Of a DNA stretch of 64,000 bases, positions 2,311 to 25,002 are shown in pieces. Made by a program: the position numbers and the translations under genes. Numbering within the stretch: position 1 is the stretch's first letter; each line of letters starts with the position of its first letter. The notes beneath the pieces are model-generated. The model saw nothing but the letters and a program-made list of their open reading frames with translations. It made no database searches and had not been told where the DNA came from. Source of the DNA: Bradyrhizobium sp. 1(2017) (GTDB lineage Bacteria > Pseudomonadota > Alphaproteobacteria > Rhizobiales > Xanthobacteraceae); assembly GCF_011602485.2 (NCBI RefSeq), contig NZ_CP050022.2, forward strand, positions 3,988,001 to 4,052,000. Direction: 5' to 3'.

Positions 2311-2937
2311 TCAGGCCGACTGCAGCAGGGGCGAGCGGACAATCAGCCGGACGAGGTCGTCCCTCGACTGCTTTTCGGCGAATTTGACCGCAAAGCCGTG
2401 GTCGAATTTGCGGATCACACGCCCGACGCAGGCGCCGACCGCAAGCGGGGTTCCGACCGGCGGATCGTATTCGCACGAGATCGCGACGCCGGCCGTGGAG
2501 ACGTCGATGATGAAACACGGATGGGTGCTGCCGTCCGCGAGCGTCAGGAACGTGTGTGAGACCTGCGGGACGAAACGCGCATCGTTCCGCAACTCCTGGA
2601 TGCTGGCGTCCTTCTGCTTCTTCTCTAGCCAGGTCAGCTTTTCCGACATCCAGGCGCGCCGCGCCCGGGTCATGTCGAGCTCCATCAGGAAGCCCGATTT
2701 CAGCGTCGCGCTGATCGTGCACTGGAATTCGCCGAAGTCCTGGAAGTAGGAGGTGAGACGCTCGCCGACCTTGCCGACGACGGGCACGTCCACGATCATG
2801 CGGAAGGGCGAGACGCGCTTGGTGCGGCACGCGAAGCTGCGGAGCTGACCCTCGCAATCATACCAGCGCGGCAGCGAGTAGCTGCCGCTCACGGCGACGT
2901 CCACTGCACGCTGCCTGAGAAACTCTGCGACGGACAT
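2311..2937 (-). CDS. PilZ domain protein
   Basis: A 208-residue soluble protein. The C-terminal half fits a PilZ domain: an arginine pair in RNDAR (117-121), then DVSTAG (145-150) and a beta-rich end (RVIRKFDHGFAVKF). In PilZ proteins the RxxxR and D/NxSxxG motifs bind cyclic di-GMP. Both are recognisable here, with the Arg spacing R117/R121. The N-terminal 95 residues are also beta-rich and may be a degenerate second PilZ-like fold. It likely senses c-di-GMP for motility or polysaccharide control; the target is unknown. Confidence 0.75.
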   Translation of the reverse strand: MSVAEFLRQRAVDVAVSGSYSLPRWYDCEGQLRSFACRTKRVSPFRMIVDVPVVGKVGERLTSYFQDFGEFQCTISATLKSGFLMELDMTRARRAWMSEKLTWLEKKQKDASIQELRNDARFVPQVSHTFLTLADGSTHPCFIIDVSTAGVAISCEYDPPVGTPLAVGACVGRVIRKFDHGFAVKFAEKQSRDDLVRLIVRSPLLQSA

Positions 2938-3115
2938 GAATGTGCCAAGGGTTTGGGGTGATTCCGTAATTCCACGGTAGCGGTCAAATTCTAAGCAAAT
3001 GATACCCGCGCGCAGGAGCAGGGGTAAATTTCCGGTAAATGCGCGGGCGGATGCGGCGCAATACCTCGCGGCACAAGGTCACAACGTCGTCATCGCGCGA
3101 ACTGGACGCCGGGGT

Positions 3116-11818: not shown

Positions 11819-12184
11819 GGTTGTTGCTCCCTTGGATGGACGGGGTTTTGCTTTGGGCCGGGACGGCGAGGGAGTGAGAGATAGCAGGAATTGGGGAGGA
11901 GGGGCAGGGGGCAGAGGCAAATGTGCGTGAGGACGTTGCGGGAGTTGAGCGAAAGCGCAGCGTGACGATCGCAGCGACAGTGAAGGAATTTGGCCCATCG
12001 CAGAGAAGCTGAATGCGAACAGGAAGTGCCAACCGAAACGCGATCCGATCCAGCACTACGCCGACGTCGAATATCGTAACCTCGCCTCCCAAGAATTACG
12101 CGCAGGCATATTCAAAGGCCGAGCCACAAAGGAACGTGTCGTTCGTGATCGCGTTCTGCTTCACAGAGTAAGTGGAGTACCGGC
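11819..12184. other. Intergenic stretch with no firm gene
   Basis: About 365 bases. A purine-rich tract lies at 11865-11925. On the plus strand a frame around 12010-12190 (…QHYADVEYRNLASQELRAGI…) is open but lacks a convincing start, and a 52-codon ATG frame from 12013 has no recognisable features. I call no gene here. Confidence 0.35.
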
Positions 12185-12364
12185 ATGCCGGATCGCGCGA
12201 GAGAAGCCGTCGAACAGGCGCGGGCCATTCTCGCAAGTTACGTCGAACCGGGATCGCGCGACTGCAACAGGACGATCAACAATCTGCTGAATGTTCTCGA
12301 TGACCAAGAGCTCATCGAGGCCATGGAGAGGGAAGATGCGCAAGGCGCTGGCAGAACTACGTGA
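12185..12364 (+). CDS. Small hypothetical protein (59 aa)
   Basis: ATG at 12185 gives MPDRAREAVEQARAILASYV and on, an acidic, mostly helical protein with the block TINNLLNVLDDQELIEAMER. This looks like a short conserved rhizobial protein, but I cannot name a family. Its end overlaps the next small frame (12336) in a different phase, suggesting translational coupling. Confidence 0.5.
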   Translation: MPDRAREAVEQARAILASYVEPGSRDCNRTINNLLNVLDDQELIEAMEREDAQGAGRTT

Positions 12365-12467
12365 GGACGAACGGCACGCGTTGCTTTACCTGGCTGATCT
12401 CGGCACCGCGGTATGTCTTTCCGGTCTGATCGTCAGCATCATCAATCTTGTCGGGGACCTGTTTTGA
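12336..12467 (+). CDS. Small single-helix membrane protein (43 aa)
   Basis: The ATG at 12336 lies inside the end of the previous gene, behind the purine-rich GGAGAGGGAAG. The product MRKALAELREDERHALLYLA continues into one hydrophobic helix (AVCLSGLIVSIINLVGDLF). The short overlap and good ribosome site argue for a real coupled gene. Function unknown. Confidence 0.4.
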   Translation: MRKALAELREDERHALLYLADLGTAVCLSGLIVSIINLVGDLF

Positions 12468-12631
12468 CGAAGCCCGATTGCCCCCGTTGGGCATCGGCTT
12501 CGTGTGCGAAACCGTCCTGGCCGCGCCGGGACCGGCTGGGCCTTCTCATTCGCACGAATTGAGCTTGCGGCCATTCTTCAAGACGCCCGCCGTCTGCGGG
12601 CTCCTTAGCTTATTAGCCCCATCCCAATCCC

Positions 12632-13035: not shown

Positions 13036-13083
13036 CGCACATCTCCTATTCCGTTTTCCGTCCAACGTCGGACTCGACTTTTT

Positions 13084-13098
13084 GTTCGGCTTTTGTTC
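13084..13098 (+). promoter_or_regulatory. LexA (SOS) operator GTTC-N7-GTTC
   Basis: GTTC at 13084-13087 and GTTC at 13095-13098 are separated by exactly seven bases, the alphaproteobacterial LexA box. It lies 32 bases before the ATG at 13131 and 48 bases from the start of the divergent DUF3072-like gene, so it could control both. The flank GACTTTTTGTTC is shared with the second box at 17022. Confidence 0.7.
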
Positions 13099-13130
13099 TC
13101 ATATCTCATCTTCAAATCGCGAGGCGGAAC

Positions 13131-13364
13131 ATGCCGGACCTGGACTATGTCAGGCGGGAAATCGAACGGATGCGCATCCAGATCGGACGGCAGCGGAAGG
13201 AGGTCCTCCAGTTGCAGCGCGCGGGTCTCGGGACGGCCTCGGCCGAAGCCCTGCTGTCGCGGATGGAGGCGAAGGTCGACGATCTCTGCGCGCAACGCGA
13301 CGCGCTGAAGGCGGCGCAGCCGCGCCCGACCAGGGGCAGGGTGCTCGGGGGGCGGACATGGTGA
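13131..13364 (+). CDS. Small coiled-coil protein behind a LexA box (77 aa)
   Basis: MPDLDYVRREIERMRIQIGR begins a protein made almost wholly of heptad-like charged helix, with KEVLQLQRAGLGTASAEALL and KVDDLCAQRDALKAAQ following, then a short basic tail. It is soluble and probably oligomeric. The LexA box 32 bases upstream predicts induction after DNA damage. Its end overlaps the next gene by seven bases. No family recognised. Confidence 0.6.
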   Translation: MPDLDYVRREIERMRIQIGRQRKEVLQLQRAGLGTASAEALLSRMEAKVDDLCAQRDALKAAQPRPTRGRVLGGRTW

Positions 13365-13585
13365 GCAGGCGCTGGTTTGACGACGAGAGAGAGCTGTCGC
13401 CCTTCCTGACCGCGCTCGAGGACGTTCGCCGCAGGGCGACGCGGGAAGGGTGGTGCTATGCCCACGTTCAGGCCATCATCGTGGCGATCGATCAATACGC
13501 GGAAGCCGCGACCGGCAACCGCGAGTATTTTCTGAACAAGCCGGTCTCGATCGGTGAGAGCAGAAAAGCCGCGGACGTTCCGTGA
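13358..13585 (+). CDS. Small hypothetical protein, coupled to 13131 (75 aa)
   Basis: The ATG at 13358 overlaps the previous gene. The product MVSRRWFDDERELSPFLTAL continues with a tryptophan/tyrosine-bearing helical core (EGWCYAHVQAIIVAIDQYAE) and NREYFLNKPVSIGES. It looks like a conserved rhizobial micro-protein. Through the overlap it would share the SOS control of the preceding gene. Function unknown. Confidence 0.6.
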   Translation: MVSRRWFDDERELSPFLTALEDVRRRATREGWCYAHVQAIIVAIDQYAEAATGNREYFLNKPVSIGESRKAADVP

Positions 13586-13792
13586 GCGCTTTGGCGCCGT
13601 GACTGCAACGCCCGGAAGCATCGCCCGTTGCGATGCTCGCACTCAAACTGCGATGATCGTGCATCGGCTCGGGAGAGCGGCGCTGACTGGCAAGTGATGC
13701 GATGCGCATTCCGAAAGCGGAACGTCGATCGCTTGAGAGCTTGTTAACCGACCGCGCTCAGGATGCCGCTCCAAATTGGAGGGGACAGCGAC

Positions 13793-14005
13793 ATGTCAGA
13801 TCTGGAACAAGCGATCCGCGAGCGTGCTTACCAGCTTTGGATGGACGGCGGTGCCGAGCACGGCCACGCCGAACGGCATTGGCTCGAAGCTCAGCGCGAA
13901 ATCCTCGCCACCTCTCTGGGCGCGGTGGCGCGGGTCTCGACGGCGAACTCCGGCAAATCGAAAACGAAATCTGCAGCTTCGCGCAAGAAGCGCCGCGCCG
14001 CCTGA
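13793..14005 (+). CDS. DUF2934 family protein (70 aa)
   Basis: MSDLEQAIRERAYQLWMDGG and HAERHWLEAQREI form the DUF2934 signature (IRERAYxLWexxG...HWLxAexE). The C-terminal half is a basic, Lys/Arg/Ala-rich tail (SKTKSAASRKKRRAA) that may bind nucleic acid. The ATG at 13793 directly precedes the motif. The role of the family is unknown. Confidence 0.8.
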   Translation: MSDLEQAIRERAYQLWMDGGAEHGHAERHWLEAQREILATSLGAVARVSTANSGKSKTKSAASRKKRRAA

Positions 14006-14023
14006 AAAGATGCGGCGCTTGCT

Positions 14024-14260
14024 TCACGAAACCGAGTGAACCGAAGCGCGAGATGATCTGGTCCGGCCGGAGGAGGCAGCCTTCCGGGCGGCAGAAGCAC
14101 CTCGGGTCTTTCCGGGCTTGGCATGAACTTCGGATATGATCCCGTTCTGCTCATCGAATTGCTTCAGCCACGCTTCGATGTATCGCGGGTCGTCAGGACA
14201 AAGCTGTTCAAGCAAACGAAGGTTCTGCGCTCTGAATTCCACGAGGGTTTTCGACATCAT
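14024..14260 (-). CDS. Small hypothetical protein (78 aa)
   Basis: MMSKTLVEFRAQNLRLLEQL continues CPDDPRYIEAWLKQFDEQNG and ends in a basic, serine-rich tail. The N-terminal 45 residues look like a helical folded unit; the tail is low-complexity. It is convergent with the DUF2934 gene. No family recognised. Confidence 0.45.
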   Translation of the reverse strand: MMSKTLVEFRAQNLRLLEQLCPDDPRYIEAWLKQFDEQNGIISEVHAKPGKTRGASAARKAASSGRTRSSRASVHSVS

Positions 14261-14366
14261 GGCTCCTCAAAACCTTGCCCGCCGAGAAGGTGCGTGGAAG
14301 GGATCGCCGGGTCAACGGCAAAGAGGGGCTTGAAATCGCAACTGAGCTGATGCAGCGCGCAACGGC

Positions 14367-14418
14367 AAAAACTCCGCCGGGGGAAGCGGCGTTCTCTGTC
14401 GGGGTGAAGTTTGGGGAC
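14367..14418. repeat. 52-bp intergenic repeat, copy 1
   Basis: This stretch is about 85 percent identical by eye to 16179-16230 and contains a related C-rich/G-rich inverted repeat (CTCCGC...GCGG). The shared segment ends TTGGGGAC. It resembles decayed terminator-type repeats used in this genome (compare 16774-16800). Confidence 0.6.
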
Positions 14419-14525
14419 GCTTCAGCTGCAAGACGTTCGAGCCGGCGGAGAGTTCAAAGGAAACGCACGGGGTGGCCGGAAACGGGACGCGTGAACTTCG
14501 GCCGAGCCAGGGGCGACCAAACGCC

Positions 14526-14690
14526 ATGCTCCAAGCCCTGCTTAGCGCGATCGTGGATCTGGTCCTGTCTGTCGCATGGAGCGCCATCGTGCGATTGCTC
14601 GGCCTGGAAAACGTCGTGGAGATCGCGACGGCAATCCTCGGGCTCAGCTGTATCGTGATCGGCTTCACGGTGTTCCTGCTGGGGTACTGA
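14526..14690 (+). CDS. Small two-helix membrane protein (54 aa)
   Basis: MLQALLSAIVDLVLSVAWSA starts a protein with two hydrophobic helices (residues 5-25 and 33-53) around a short polar turn (RLLGLENVVE). Upstream in-frame codons add a polar stretch, so the ATG at 14526 is preferred. Function unknown. Confidence 0.45.
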   Translation: MLQALLSAIVDLVLSVAWSAIVRLLGLENVVEIATAILGLSCIVIGFTVFLLGY

Positions 14691-14940
14691 AAACAGCGCG
14701 CTTGCAGCCACAAGCTCATGGACGGTGCCGGCGGCCTGATCGCCGGCCGGCACTGAGTCTGCGATTACAAATCCGTAAGTCAGTTGAAAAACAGCGCCTT
14801 GGAATTATCTCTGGGTCAGGCGGCAGCGTAACAAGCCGCTCCTCAACTGACACCCAGCCGCCGCGCTCAGAACCGGCGAAGCTGGGTCCTTTGACATTCC
14901 CGCGACTGGCCCCGCCTCACTGGCCTCAGAGGCAACGCCC

Positions 14941-15147
14941 ATGGCTACCCGCACGTACAATCACGAACGCTGGTCGGAAGATGACGACCGGCTGCTCCGG
15001 TCCATGTGTGAAACCGGCAAGAGCCTGACCTTGATGATCGTGAAGCTCAAGCGTCCGATCGCCTCGATCAGATCGCGTGCGATCGAACTCGGCCTCAACC
15101 TGCCGGGCACCCGCATCGGTCTGCGTCGCAAGAGCCGGAGCGCCTAG
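14941..15147 (+). CDS. Small SANT/Myb-like helix-turn-helix protein (68 aa)
   Basis: MATRTYNHERWSEDDDRLLR continues MCETGKSLTLMIVKLKRPIA and SIRSRAIELGLNLPGTRIG. The W-S-x-D-D-x-x-L start and the RxxxSIRSRAxELGL ending fit a Myb/SANT-like helix-turn-helix, and the C-terminus is basic. It is probably a DNA-binding micro-protein. The target is unknown. Confidence 0.6.
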   Translation: MATRTYNHERWSEDDDRLLRSMCETGKSLTLMIVKLKRPIASIRSRAIELGLNLPGTRIGLRRKSRSA

Positions 15148-15184
15148 ACCGGCGCGGCGGTCACGCCCGCGCCCCGTCCGCAAA

Positions 15185-15502
15185 TCAGGCCGCAACCCGT
15201 TGCTCGACGGGCGCGGTCAGGTATTTGAGCACTTCCGCATGCTCGAGGTCGGGGACCGCGATGGCCGTGTGGCTGTACATCGCATGGCTGCGCGAGCTTG
15301 CGATCCTGTCCAGGACATCCTTGCCTTTGACGACGTGCAGGCCCATGCCGTCTCCGGACGGGAAGATCGCAAGCACCACGTCATAGGCGGCGATGACGGC
15401 ACGCAGCGCTTCCGCCTTGTCTTCGGCAACGTCGACGAAAATGCGCACATCAGCCGCGAGTTCACGCAGCTCGTTAAAATCCAGCACTGTGGGGTACTCC
15501 AA
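15185..15502 (-). CDS. Hypothetical protein (about 100 aa)
   Basis: An alpha/beta protein: VLDFNELRELAADVRIFVDV, then EDKAEALRAVIAAYDVVLAI, FPSGDGMGLHVVKGKDVLDR and a C-terminal helix. The start is uncertain: TTG at 15502 or GTG at 15487, since no good ATG precedes the conserved-looking part. No family recognised and no signal peptide. Confidence 0.5.
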   Translation of the reverse strand: MEYPTVLDFNELRELAADVRIFVDVAEDKAEALRAVIAAYDVVLAIFPSGDGMGLHVVKGKDVLDRIASSRSHAMYSHTAIAVPDLEHAEVLKYLTAPVEQRVAA

Positions 15503-15630
15503 CGCAACGATACTGACGCGAGATTGGAGGCGTTAGGTTACCGAAGTCTCAACAAGGCGTGCCGGGCCACAAGTTTCACGACGAGGTGACCGGCTGCGCT
15601 CTCAATGCGCCATGAGATCGGGATGACGCG

Positions 15631-16113
15631 TCATTGCGCTTTGCGAAGCCGGGCCTCCGCGGCCTCGTCCACGAGGCTCAAGGTGGTCCCGTCATAGCTC
15701 AGCTTGAACCCGCGGCCGACGATCCATGTCCATCCCTCGCGCTCTTTGATCGCCGAAGCGTTGAACTGGTCGGAGATCGATTTGACGGCAGCGTCCTGCG
15801 GCCCCGGATTGTTCAACTCCGCATTGACGCGCCAGATCGGATGCTTGGCGTCGGCATCGTCACTGTAGACCGTGACCTTGGCGCCGTTGATCTCGCATTC
15901 GAGGGTGTACGAGCCTCGGGTCTGGCGGCAAAGATAATGGCGCTGAGTGACGAGCTTGGAGGCCTCGTCAAACGTCATCCCGGGCGAGAAGCCGAACATG
16001 TCCGACTTCTTCACGACGGCCAAGGAGGCCGGCTTCAGGAAGCCTGGCTGGATGGCGACGATGGCTGCAACAGCGACAACGACCAGGCCGGCGAGAACGA
16101 TAGCAACCTTCAT
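15631..16113 (-). CDS. Membrane-anchored or exported hypothetical protein (160 aa)
   Basis: Start at 16113 (MKVAIVLAGLVVVAVAAIVA) gives an N-terminal signal anchor. The rest is periplasmic: FGFSPGMTFDEASKLVTQR, two cysteines around residues 65-75 (LCRQTRGSYTLEC) that could form a disulfide, and WRVNAELNNPGPQ. The FGFSPGMTFDEA block is typical of a family of rhizobial exported proteins of unknown function. Confidence 0.55.
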   Translation of the reverse strand: MKVAIVLAGLVVVAVAAIVAIQPGFLKPASLAVVKKSDMFGFSPGMTFDEASKLVTQRHYLCRQTRGSYTLECEINGAKVTVYSDDADAKHPIWRVNAELNNPGPQDAAVKSISDQFNASAIKEREGWTWIVGRGFKLSYDGTTLSLVDEAAEARLRKAQ

Positions 16114-16464
16114 GAGCCCCCCACGAGAAACCATTCGACCATATAGCAGCCGCCGCCCTCAACCGGGCCCCAAAAGCGAAAACCCCGCCTGGGGGAAGCG
16201 GGGCTCTCTGGTGGGGTGAAGCTTGGGGACTTCATGAATAAGACGCACCGGGGCGCAAATGGTTCAAAAAAAACGGTACATGCCGCGGCATCGTTCACAG
16301 GAAGTCGGGGAACCCCAGGGAAGCCCTGCTTGCGTTTTGGGCCTCGATAGGCTCTAAGCCCCGTCACTTCATGACCTCTGGCATGAATCAGAAGCGCGCC
16401 TCCGCGGGATCCCAGCCGCGTCCACGGCAGAGTTATTCGCGCACCCTTCAAAGGAATTCAGAAC
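16114..16464. other. Intergenic stretch upstream of the HU gene
   Basis: About 350 bases. It holds the second copy of the 52-bp repeat (16179-16230), an A-run near 16266-16273, and the leader of the HU gene with a ribosome site AAAGGA about ten bases before its ATG. No reading frame is convincing. Confidence 0.5.
16179..16230. repeat. 52-bp intergenic repeat, copy 2, with terminator-like hairpin
   Basis: It pairs with copy 1 at 14367. Here the stem is perfect (CCCCGC/GCGGGG), and on the minus strand it is followed by TTTTCGCTTTTG, so it could end minus-strand transcripts. It shares the AAAACCCCGC...GGGGCTCTCT pattern with the HU terminator. Confidence 0.6.
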
Positions 16465-16761
16465 ATGGCGAAGATGACGAAGACCCAATTGATCGATGCA
16501 ATTGCGGAAGGCACGCAGCTGTCCAAGAACGACGTGAAGTCGGTGATCGAGTACATGGCGACGGTCGGCTATAAGGAGCTCAACGAGTCCGGCGAGTTCG
16601 TCATTCCTGGCTTCGTGAAGATGTCGGTCGTCAACAAGCCGGCGACCGAAGCCCGGATGGGCGTCAATCCCTTCACCAAGGAGCCGATGCAGTTTGCGGC
16701 AAAGCCCGCAAGCAAGTCGGTCAAGGCCTCACCGCTGAAGGTAGCCAAGGACGCTGTCTAG
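16465..16761 (+). CDS. HU-family DNA-binding protein
   Basis: A 98-residue histone-like protein. MAKMTKTQLIDAIAEGTQLS begins the helical dimerisation part; GEFVIPGFVKMSVVNKPATE and ARMGVNPFTKEPMQFAAKPA form the beta-arm that wraps the DNA minor groove. The arm tip reads GVNPFTKEP rather than the common GRNPxTGxx, so it is a variant HU. It bends and compacts DNA, usually as a dimer. The gene has its own leader, ribosome site and terminator. Confidence 0.92.
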   Translation: MAKMTKTQLIDAIAEGTQLSKNDVKSVIEYMATVGYKELNESGEFVIPGFVKMSVVNKPATEARMGVNPFTKEPMQFAAKPASKSVKASPLKVAKDAV

Positions 16762-16773
16762 GCAAAAGAAAAA

Positions 16774-16800
16774 CCCCGCGCTTTCGCACGGGGCTCTCTT
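16774..16800 (+). terminator. Terminator of the HU gene
   Basis: CCCCGCGC (16774-16781) pairs with GCACGGGG (16786-16793) around a TTTC loop, with one mismatch, and is followed by CTCTCTT. On the minus strand the same stem is followed by TTTTTCTTTT, so it may work both ways. It starts 12 bases after the HU stop codon. Confidence 0.75.
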
Positions 16801-16839
16801 GGCTGACGGCATTGGGATTTCAGCGCCTGGCCGTCAGCC
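16801..16839 (+). ncRNA. Hairpin with the GATTTCAGCG loop
   Basis: A perfect 10-bp stem GGCTGACGGC/GCCGTCAGCC (16801-16810, 16830-16839) encloses an inner GG/CC pair and the loop GATTTCAGCG (16816-16825). The same ten-base loop tops hairpins at 16924-16943 (minus strand) and 22771-22790 (plus strand) whose stems differ in sequence. It follows the HU terminator directly. Confidence 0.45.
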
Positions 16840-16865
16840 GTGTCCCTAACTTAAGGTTGAAAATC

Positions 16866-16951
16866 CAAAAAGCAACAGCGCCGCGATGACGGAGTATGTT
16901 CGTCAGGCGGCGCTGCCGTATGACTGGGCGCTGAAATCCCCAGCTTCCATA
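16866..16951 (-). ncRNA. Two-hairpin structured RNA element, copy 1
   Basis: Read on the minus strand: an outer TATG/CATA pairing (16948-16951 and 16919-16922), then stem CTGGG/CCCAG with loop GATTTCAGCG, then a second hairpin. The second hairpin has a 9-bp outer stem (16876-16884 with 16907-16915), an inner TGACG/CGTCA stem and a 9-base loop, followed by GTTGCTTTTTGG. The T-run after the last stem resembles an intrinsic terminator, which suggests the minus strand is transcribed. Copy 2 at 22757 keeps the fold with changed base pairs. Strand and function are inferences. Confidence 0.5.
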
Positions 16952-17021
16952 GGTCCGCGCCGTCCGGAAAAGGTTCAAGGCGCCGCGCCCCGGAATTTCG
17001 CAGGCGGGGACTGGACTTTTT

Positions 17022-17036
17022 GTTCTCATTTTGTTC
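17022..17036 (+). promoter_or_regulatory. LexA (SOS) operator GTTC-N7-GTTC
   Basis: GTTC at 17022-17025 and 17033-17036 with exactly seven bases between, preceded by the same GACTTTTT flank as the box at 13084. It lies 30 bases before the ATG at 17067, within promoter distance. Confidence 0.7.
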
Positions 17037-17066
17037 TAGTTGGTCATCTTCTTTGGGAGGTGATTC

Positions 17067-17204
17067 ATGACCGTCGAGAAACAGCGCGAAGTGATCAGGC
17101 TCTGGAACGAACTCAGGAAGCTCGAGGGGCCGGCCGCGGAAGAGCTCCGTATCCAGATCCTGGAATGCTTTTCGGAGAAGGGCAAAGCGAAGCGCGCGGC
17201 GTGA
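17067..17204 (+). CDS. 45-residue protein behind a LexA box
   Basis: MTVEKQREVIRLWNELRKLE continues GPAAEELRIQILECFSEKGK and ends AKRAA: a short amphipathic, helical, mixed-charge protein with one cysteine. A good ribosome site (GGGAGG) lies eight bases before the ATG. The LexA box predicts DNA-damage induction. No family recognised. Its length suits a small regulator or inhibitor, but nothing in the sequence fixes a role. Confidence 0.6.
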   Translation: MTVEKQREVIRLWNELRKLEGPAAEELRIQILECFSEKGKAKRAA

Positions 17205-17425: not shown

Positions 17426-17474
17426 CGGCGCCTGCCTTCATCGATCGTTAGGATTTGCGTTTCCCCGAGCTTCC

Positions 17475-17509
17475 GACTCCGATTCGTTCTTTGCGAACGA
17501 AATGGAGTC
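17475..17509. repeat. Palindromic repeat, copy 1
   Basis: Stem GACTCC/GGAGTC plus TTCGTTC/GAACGAA with two-base bulges (GA and AT) and a TTTGC loop. It shares the core GATTCGTTCTTxGCGAACGA with the copy at 17709. Confidence 0.7.
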
Positions 17510-17708
17510 GCATGCAGAACAAGCCGTGGCTTCTGTGTCGATGCGGGACATGTGCGTCTCGGCGAGCTTTCGCAACAGGCCTGCGATGTTGCCGGCCCCG
17601 CGGCTGGCGCGAAGTCGCTCCGTCTGCGGCGGGCGAGAAGGGCGTCACCCGATTGAACCTACGCGGCGCGTGCACACCGCTTGTTAAGAGTTGCTGCGCA
17701 CCGATTTC

Positions 17709-17749
17709 TTCGATTCCGATTCGTTCTTCGCGAACGAAGAGGAGTCGAA
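17709..17749. repeat. Palindromic repeat, copy 2
   Basis: Stem TTCGATTCC/GGAGTCGAA (one G-T pair) plus TTCGTTC/GAACGAA around the loop TTCGC. Same architecture as copy 1 with a longer outer stem. Confidence 0.7.
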
Positions 17750-17972
17750 GCCGGAACGAAGCGGGGCAGGGAGTGAAGGGCAGCGCCGGTCTACGCGATG
17801 CGCGGACACCGAGCTGCGAAGGCAGGTGCAACTCCTAACGAAAGCTTGTGCGAAAGCCGATAACCCTATTCGGTTAGGTTAAAAGCCCAATCGCGTTGCG
17901 CTTGCCGCTGCTTGGGATAGGTGTCTTGGCAAGGACAATCAAGAAACGACCTTTGCCAGAAGCAATTTTGCC

Positions 17973-24746: not shown

Positions 24747-25002
24747 GCGACGGAAGCTTTCGAAGAGGACAGAAGCGGTGATTGCAGTGCGATGGGGACG
24801 CCCGGCGGGATCCCGGCGCGGAAGACGGGTACGCAATTGTCACGGTGCAGCATAATGACTATACCCATAGGCAAGGCACCTCGGGAGCCGGAATCACCGA
24901 ACATTTCCCGAACGGTGTCTCTATACTATCCCTGAGGTTTCCACCAACTGCCACCGTGACGCATCGGAATAGCACGAAAAGACCAAGAGGCCCGGACCAC
25001 CC

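Follow-up and report, generated by a model that had tools for sequence, protein, structure and literature searches.

In a 64-kb window (positions 3988001-4052000 of a 7.86-Mb Bradyrhizobium genome), two boxes of the form GTTC-N7-GTTC precede genes encoding three micro-proteins of 77, 75 and 45 amino acids (aa). Comparative analysis indicates that both boxes are almost certainly LexA operators and that the micro-proteins are under LexA control, because the boxes are conserved at orthologous loci; this conservation, and not the bare motif count, is the decisive evidence. Moreover, as judged from gene order in relatives, the two boxes belong to a single SOS system, one nearly confined to the genus. 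The best overall explanation, to which we assign a probability of about 0.5, is a LexA-controlled micro-protein system whose products act as accessory factors of DNA repair. The features concerned are the following.

13074-13102, + strand: predicted operon 1 promoter, with -35-like TCGACT (13074-13079), a 17-nt spacer and -10-like TCTCAT (13097-13102), by consensus reading
13084-13098, + strand: predicted LexA (SOS) box 1, GTTCGGCTTTTGTTC, exact GTTC-N7-GTTC match
13131-13364, + strand: 77-aa micro-protein gene; product modelled as a helical hairpin, its C-terminal tail (RVLGGRxW) basic and conserved
13358-13585, + strand: 75-aa micro-protein gene, its 5' end overlapping the 3' end of the 77-aa gene by 7 nt
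17012-17040, + strand: predicted operon 2 promoter, with -35-like TGGACT (17012-17017), a 17-nt spacer and -10-like TCTAGT (17035-17040)
17022-17036, + strand: predicted LexA (SOS) box 2, GTTCTCATTTTGTTC, exact GTTC-N7-GTTC match
17067-17204, + strand: 45-aa micro-protein gene

A preliminary description of this DNA had reported two such boxes with a common flank, each about 30 bases before a tiny gene, and had given the gene sizes as 77 plus an overlapping 75 aa, and 45 aa. All of this was borne out: both matches are exact and on the + strand, they share the flank GACTTTTTGTTC, and they end 32 nt before the ATG of the 77-aa gene (13131) and 30 nt before that of the 45-aa gene (17067). Box 1 lies between the -35-like and -10-like hexamers of operon 1 and overlaps the latter, and orthologues of operon 2 show a geometry similar to that in the window. 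We read the hexamers as putative -35 and -10 elements, with a 17-nt spacer and the box between them in the classic position of a repressor site, and the start site is predicted accordingly. The spacer of box 1 is two bases off the commonest orthologue form, GTTCCGTTTTTGTTC.

Conservation of the box upstream of Bradyrhizobium orthologues had been set beforehand as a check on the preliminary description, and the operator is indeed kept. An exact box is found upstream of all 79 orthologues of the 45-aa gene (the top 30 and the other 49, down to 44% identity), compared with none for the reversed motif, none for the reverse complement and a mean of 0.28 for shuffled motifs. At these loci both half-sites are 100% invariant while no displayed flank column is, and the distance from box to ATG ranges from 23 to 50 nt. 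For the 75-aa family, 71 of the 80 named loci (the best 80 of 134 confirmed) carry a strict box within 650 nt; the reversed control gave 0 strict matches and 1 loose match, and the shuffled mean was 0.25. Of the 102 strict-type boxes in these 80 loci, 68 are preceded at a constant distance by CT[GCT]GAC, and the second half-site continues into TTCTAG, TTCTCA or TTCTAA in 69. The box precedes the 77-aa gene in 28/28 closely related named loci. Across the 77-aa family it lies within 110 bp in 24 of the top 30 loci and, in 25 further loci, within 130 bp in 8 and farther upstream in 2; many of the box-less loci are extra paralogues, several with one altered base in the second half-site as read by eye. 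Finally, at loci of a 91-aa micro-protein described below, the box stands 9 nt before the ATG in 30/30 examined cases, these being the best-scoring ones and having no null control.

Motif counts, which the preliminary description had also proposed as a check, gave a divided answer. Bare GTTC-N7-GTTC does not exceed chance in the window (3 sites versus 1.59 expected; 25 of 100 shuffles had 3 or more), nor is it enriched genome-wide (150 sites versus 161 for the reversed motif). The sub-type GTTCN5WTGTTC, in contrast, which was picked after part of the genome-wide site list had been seen, occurs 26 times versus 3 for its reversed control, and boxes 1 and 2 are among the 26. The third window site, GTTCGGGAAATGTTC at 24899-24913 on the - strand, is also of the enriched sub-type; no clear target gene was seen when the site was inspected.

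The genome carries lexA at C1:4490730 (Pfam PF01726); 113 bp before the matched domain stands GAACACATATCGAAC, and all 16 lexA loci examined in the genus have such a box within 220 bp. By eye, and not by a family scan, the genes recognised at the 26 sub-type sites include recA, ssb, comM/yifB, imuA and two radical-SAM genes, one of them divergent from imuA. GTTCN7GTTC is the LexA motif of Caulobacter, as given in the accessible part of the source (PMC12700426). Like the known alphaproteobacterial LexA regulon (recA, lexA, ssb, comM, imuA-imuB-dnaE2), both window boxes have this operator in the promoter region, in a genome whose lexA is itself box-bearing; the difference lies in the products, here three micro-proteins outside curated families. 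The earlier proposal that LexA controls uncharacterised micro-proteins therefore has very strong comparative support (79/79 and 71/80 loci, with the lexA box in 16/16). As a side observation, boxes at two other sites (L010 and L022) precede or overlap genes that by eye resemble a GIY-YIG nuclease and an AAA ATPase and are possible further SOS targets.

Substitution rates indicate that the three micro-proteins are real and under purifying selection, since dN is far below dS for each gene. In the 45-aa gene, dN over codons 1-35 is 0-0.012 versus a dS of 0.41-0.67 (5 relatives); the corresponding values are 0.012-0.115 versus 0.40-1.09 for the 75-aa gene and 0.055-0.176 versus 0.30-0.79 for the 77-aa gene (6 relatives each). 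The earlier proposal that they fall outside the known families agrees with all searches carried out. No Pfam or NCBIfam family scored above its curated cut-off (best Pfam E 0.0031, for PspA; best NCBIfam for a window protein E 0.079), PHROGs gave nothing better than E 0.026 and PADLOC no match, and these Pfam, NCBIfam and PADLOC scans contained no known toxin or antitoxin family. A PDB sequence search returned nothing for the 75-aa protein, with best values of E 0.024 for the 45-aa and E 0.17 for the 77-aa protein. The PspA/IM30 hit (PF04012) reflects weak coiled-coil similarity of the 77-aa protein, which is not a member of that family: it scores 17.6 bits versus a cut-off of 33.9 and covers 40 of 220 positions. 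A literature search in which subscription papers were mostly missing turned up no account of these genes, which is not proof of absence in print.

The term 'coiled or helical', which the preliminary description applied to all these proteins, is justified to a different degree for each. The 77-aa protein is modelled by AlphaFold as a helical hairpin (pLDDT 87.8; helices 4-30 and 36-62) with a loose, conserved and basic tail; a fold search with the hairpin returned generic hairpins alone, none at E 0.001 or better. The 45-aa protein is probably a short helical protein, read as such by eye. For the 75-aa protein the model is poor, and the sequence is better described as a putative small conserved domain, with 21 columns invariant in 35 sequences and C33, H36, Q38, D45, Q46, Y47, E49, G53, N54 and R55 among the invariant residues.

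The operon organisation of relatives ties the two boxes together. In 28/28 close named relatives (L257-L284) the order box-77-75 is followed 1.0-5.1 kb downstream, on the same strand, by box-45; in one of them, L267, the 77-aa match is split in two pieces. In a metagenome genome (locus L182, identical to L307) one box heads 45-77-75, followed 6 nt later by a 220-aa SRAP gene, and in multi-copy relatives the gene preceding the 77-aa gene is a relative of the 45-aa family. Because a single box elsewhere heads 45-77-75, we conclude from gene order that the window boxes belong together, and a joint function of the 45-, 77- and 75-aa proteins is probable. A second operon type has the order box-91/94 aa-70 aa-75 aa, and in L290 the 70-aa (77-like) and 75-aa parts lie within one open frame, and a DNA ligase follows after 82 nt. 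The 77-aa and 70-aa families are homologous (hhalign 95.4%, E 1.7e-8), and hhalign gives weak values for 77 versus 91 aa (32.4%) and for 91 versus 70 aa (37.0%). A common homology of all the micro-proteins was rejected, as the 45-aa and 91-aa proteins are unrelated (hhalign 0.3%).

Two features of this system go beyond the preliminary description: the two boxes appear to belong to one system, and the genome holds two more micro-protein loci with like boxes. The first of these, L015 (C1:2258172-2261186), has the order box-91-69 aa with the box 9 nt before the 91-aa ATG; at the second, L017 (C1:3355915-3358929), the box is followed by a relative of the 91-aa protein (E 1.1e-9).

The system is widespread in the genus. 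At E 0.01, 79 of 98 genus genomes have a match to the 45-aa protein, one each, and 19 have none; homologues of the 77-aa protein occur in 74 and of the 75-aa protein in 71, and the 91-aa gene has matches in 94. Order-wide (347 genomes), good 45-aa matches were restricted to 12 genomes of the same genus, with two partial matches elsewhere (E 7e-4 and 9e-4), and 75-aa matches to 8 genomes, all of the same genus; family-wide (198 genomes), the 45-aa profile matched 11 same-genus and 2 other-genus genomes. One of the named 75-aa loci is from Afipia clevelandensis. The micro-proteins thus appear nearly confined to Bradyrhizobium, within searches at order and family level that scored only the best 16-32 first-look candidates per genome and that distant relatives may escape; the 77-aa profile was searched within the genus and against plasmids and phages. 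On Bradyrhizobium plasmids a 77-aa-like stretch was found in 12 records, 7 of them typed conjugative, and a 75-aa-like stretch in 3, while no plasmid record matched the 45-aa protein, for which the search of mobile elements covered plasmids alone. A phage origin was rejected, as phage records gave no match to the 77- or 75-aa protein. Four genomes (G001, G039, G265 and G288) contain up to 13 full or broken 75-aa matches (13 each in G001 and G039) and several 77-aa matches, some without an exact box. These multi-copy relatives look as if the micro-protein module spreads and decays.

In a minority of loci, genes of DNA-repair enzymes lie near the operons. Two further window features are relevant.

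12057-12119, + strand: 3'-terminal remnant of an ATP-dependent DNA ligase gene, lying 1.0 kb before the 77-aa gene
16465-16761, + strand: HU-family DNA-binding protein gene (Pfam PF00216, E 8.5e-18), upstream of operon 2

Ligase or SRAP sequence is present in 13 of the 80 named 75-aa loci, whose fetched flanks reach up to 6 kb (909 kb in all), and by printed coordinates it lies within 1.3 kb of the cluster in all 13. Seven of these genes are full-length (ligase in L267, L290, L301, L329, L332 and L333, SRAP in L307), one is a ligase in three pieces (L308) and five are remnants. The ligase open reading frames (ORFs) in L290, L301, L308 and L329 start 33-92 nt after the 75-aa gene, and Pfam confirms the L290 ligase (PF01068, PF04679) and the L182/L307 SRAP (PF02586). 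In the genus sample at least 5 of 96 hits to the 77-aa protein have a secondary SRAP gene no more than 500 bp away, with a divergent arrangement in four of the five. Over all 195 loci searched, duplicates included, 34 gave a ligase or SRAP hit; the controls gave 0 of 27 lexA-domain loci and 0 of 30 91-aa loci (1.5-kb flanks).

By tblastn, the window remnant matches the full-length L267 ligase at 63.6% over 22 aa (E 3.9e-4, target of 2.2 kb), and a second ligase used as query gives E 0.015 in 20 kb. The surrounding DNA (12056-12526) shares 78.8% identity over 486 nt with the end of the L267 ligase and the DNA downstream of it, and in line with this L267 has its full-length ligase gene 1.2 kb upstream of the 77-aa gene. 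L257, L264 and L281 have ligase remnants as well; blastn detected none in 24 of the 28 close loci. The HU-like gene neighbours the micro-protein genes in 30/30 and 28/28 close loci, in 15 of 49 other 45-aa loci and in 1 of 52 other 75-aa loci; for all this conservation as a neighbour, nothing was seen that points to its membership of the SOS unit. Just downstream of the 45-aa gene (about 17440-17880), overlapping ORFs repeat an SDSFFANE-like peptide, which suggests a short repeated DNA element.

That some operons of the 45-77-75 type run into an SRAP or ATP-ligase gene recalls the SRAP (YedK/HMCES)-Ku-ATP-ligase neighbourhoods, in which SRAP, Ku, ATP-ligase and two Zn-chelating domains were tied to SOS operons (Aravind 2013, PMC3765255). 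The accessible part of that paper has the two Zn-chelating domains and no mention of these helical micro-proteins. It also places YolD and Zn-chelating genes as accessory genes near SOS repair genes, a setting like the present one, with the difference that no Pfam or NCBIfam family reaches its cut-off with the Bradyrhizobium micro-proteins. Separately, at L009 (C1:752662-755676) the box GTTCCTGATATGTTC at 1501-1515 is followed by two cysteine-containing ORFs and an SRAP-like gene at 2410-3012 (tblastn 51.7%), resembling the SRAP plus two Zn-chelating proteins arrangement in the accessible part of PMC3765255, the Zn reading being by eye.

Our proposed explanation runs as follows. In healthy cells LexA would block both promoters. 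Upon DNA damage, RecA filaments trigger self-cleavage of LexA, the established SOS pathway. This would free the promoters, so that the 77- and 75-aa proteins and the 45-aa protein would be produced together. The three would then work together as an accessory complex of DNA repair, helping for example an ATP-dependent end-joining ligase or the abasic-site protein SRAP. The sequence supports the steps that concern the box, the promoter geometry, conservation, the coding genes, the joint operons, the minority ligase/SRAP neighbours and the window ligase remnant; LexA binding, induction, complex formation and the repair role are the steps we infer. A repair role by way of ligase or SRAP is possible, with a likelihood somewhat short of even. 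Still more tentatively, Bradyrhizobium may possess an SOS branch of its own, in which LexA-repressed helical micro-proteins (45, 77/70, 75 and 91 aa) reshuffle between operons and form a lineage-specific complex that directs SRAP and end-joining ligases where DNA is damaged.

Several observations weigh against this explanation, in part or as a whole. Unlike the SRAP-Ku-ATP-ligase neighbourhoods, most micro-protein copies are without such enzymes: 67 of the 80 named loci have no ligase or SRAP piece in the fetched flanks, none of 49 loci with the 45-aa gene alone is near either (flanks up to 3 kb), and in the window nothing but a remnant of the ligase is left. Other GTTC sites of this genome gave a ligase or SRAP in 1 of 28 cases (L009). 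The loci share ancestry and are therefore not independent. As to the box, 9 of the 80 named 75-aa loci are without it, and the exact form is kept in just 34 of the 55 examined loci of the 77-aa family, extra paralogues having often lost it. The AlphaFold model of the 75-aa protein (pLDDT 66.0) is too poor for a fold search.

Three other functions were weighed. The products could act as checkpoint proteins, induced by the SOS response to pause replication or cell division, like SidA or SulA; the preliminary description had likewise suggested inhibitors of division or replication. The proteins are small and SOS-controlled, and micro-proteins serve this purpose in Caulobacter, whose SidA and DidA are, according to the accessible part of the source, tiny, DNA-damage-induced transmembrane inhibitors of division (PMC4211646). 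By hydropathy, however, the Bradyrhizobium proteins are soluble: the maximum Kyte-Doolittle value over 19 residues is 0.65 (77 aa), 0.81 (75 aa) and 0.05 (45 aa), far from that of a membrane helix. Inspection by eye, as distinct from a family scan, of the larger ORFs closest to the genes at 52 loci revealed no recognisable division gene, and DNA ligase and SRAP are the neighbours with a known function that were tested for and found. We consider a checkpoint role unlikely, and the earlier suggestion is not upheld.

Alternatively, the micro-proteins might tune the SOS switch by binding RecA filaments or LexA. DinI and RecX act in this way, and DinI is of similar small size. The resemblance in size, the helical hairpin of the 77-aa protein and the spread of homologues over 71 to 94 of the 98 genomes of the genus, depending on the protein, all fit such a role, and gp7 of phage GIL01 illustrates, in the accessible part of PMC4551915, that a small protein can act on LexA. 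Yet there is no similarity to a known family, three to five distinct proteins are many for one modulator, and the 45-, 77-, 75- and 91-aa profiles match neither the recA locus L025 nor the 27 lexA-domain loci (about 1.5-kb flanks). This function, too, appears improbable.

Low probability is likewise given to a mobile or selfish module, toxin-antitoxin-like for instance, that uses LexA for its own timing. The 77- and 75-aa genes are multi-copy in some genomes, with fragments and stops, similar stretches occur on plasmids of which some are typed conjugative, and two overlapping small genes resemble a toxin-antitoxin layout. On the other hand, neither PADLOC nor any toxin-antitoxin family was matched, nor any phage by the 77- or 75-aa protein; the arrangement 77-75 then 45, each boxed, is kept under purifying selection in 28/28 close named relatives; and homologues reach 79 (45 aa) and 94 (91 aa) of 98 genus genomes. 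That the boxes are chance matches before ordinary small genes, as the parity of the bare motif and its reverse in this genome might suggest, is highly improbable and is refuted by the conservation of the boxes at orthologues (79/79 and 71/80 loci with null controls near 0, and 30/30 examined 91-aa loci, the latter without a null control).

SOS regulons are usually told through large, well-known repair genes, whereas Bradyrhizobium, a genus of agriculturally important nitrogen fixers, would place several otherwise unknown micro-protein genes under LexA. The strong conservation of the operator makes the prediction of LexA control easy to test. Should the micro-proteins have no role with ligase or SRAP, they would still be a collection of orphan proteins, induced by damage, that lend themselves to direct functional tests; should they indeed act with either enzyme, bacterial end-joining or abasic-site repair would gain new regulators.

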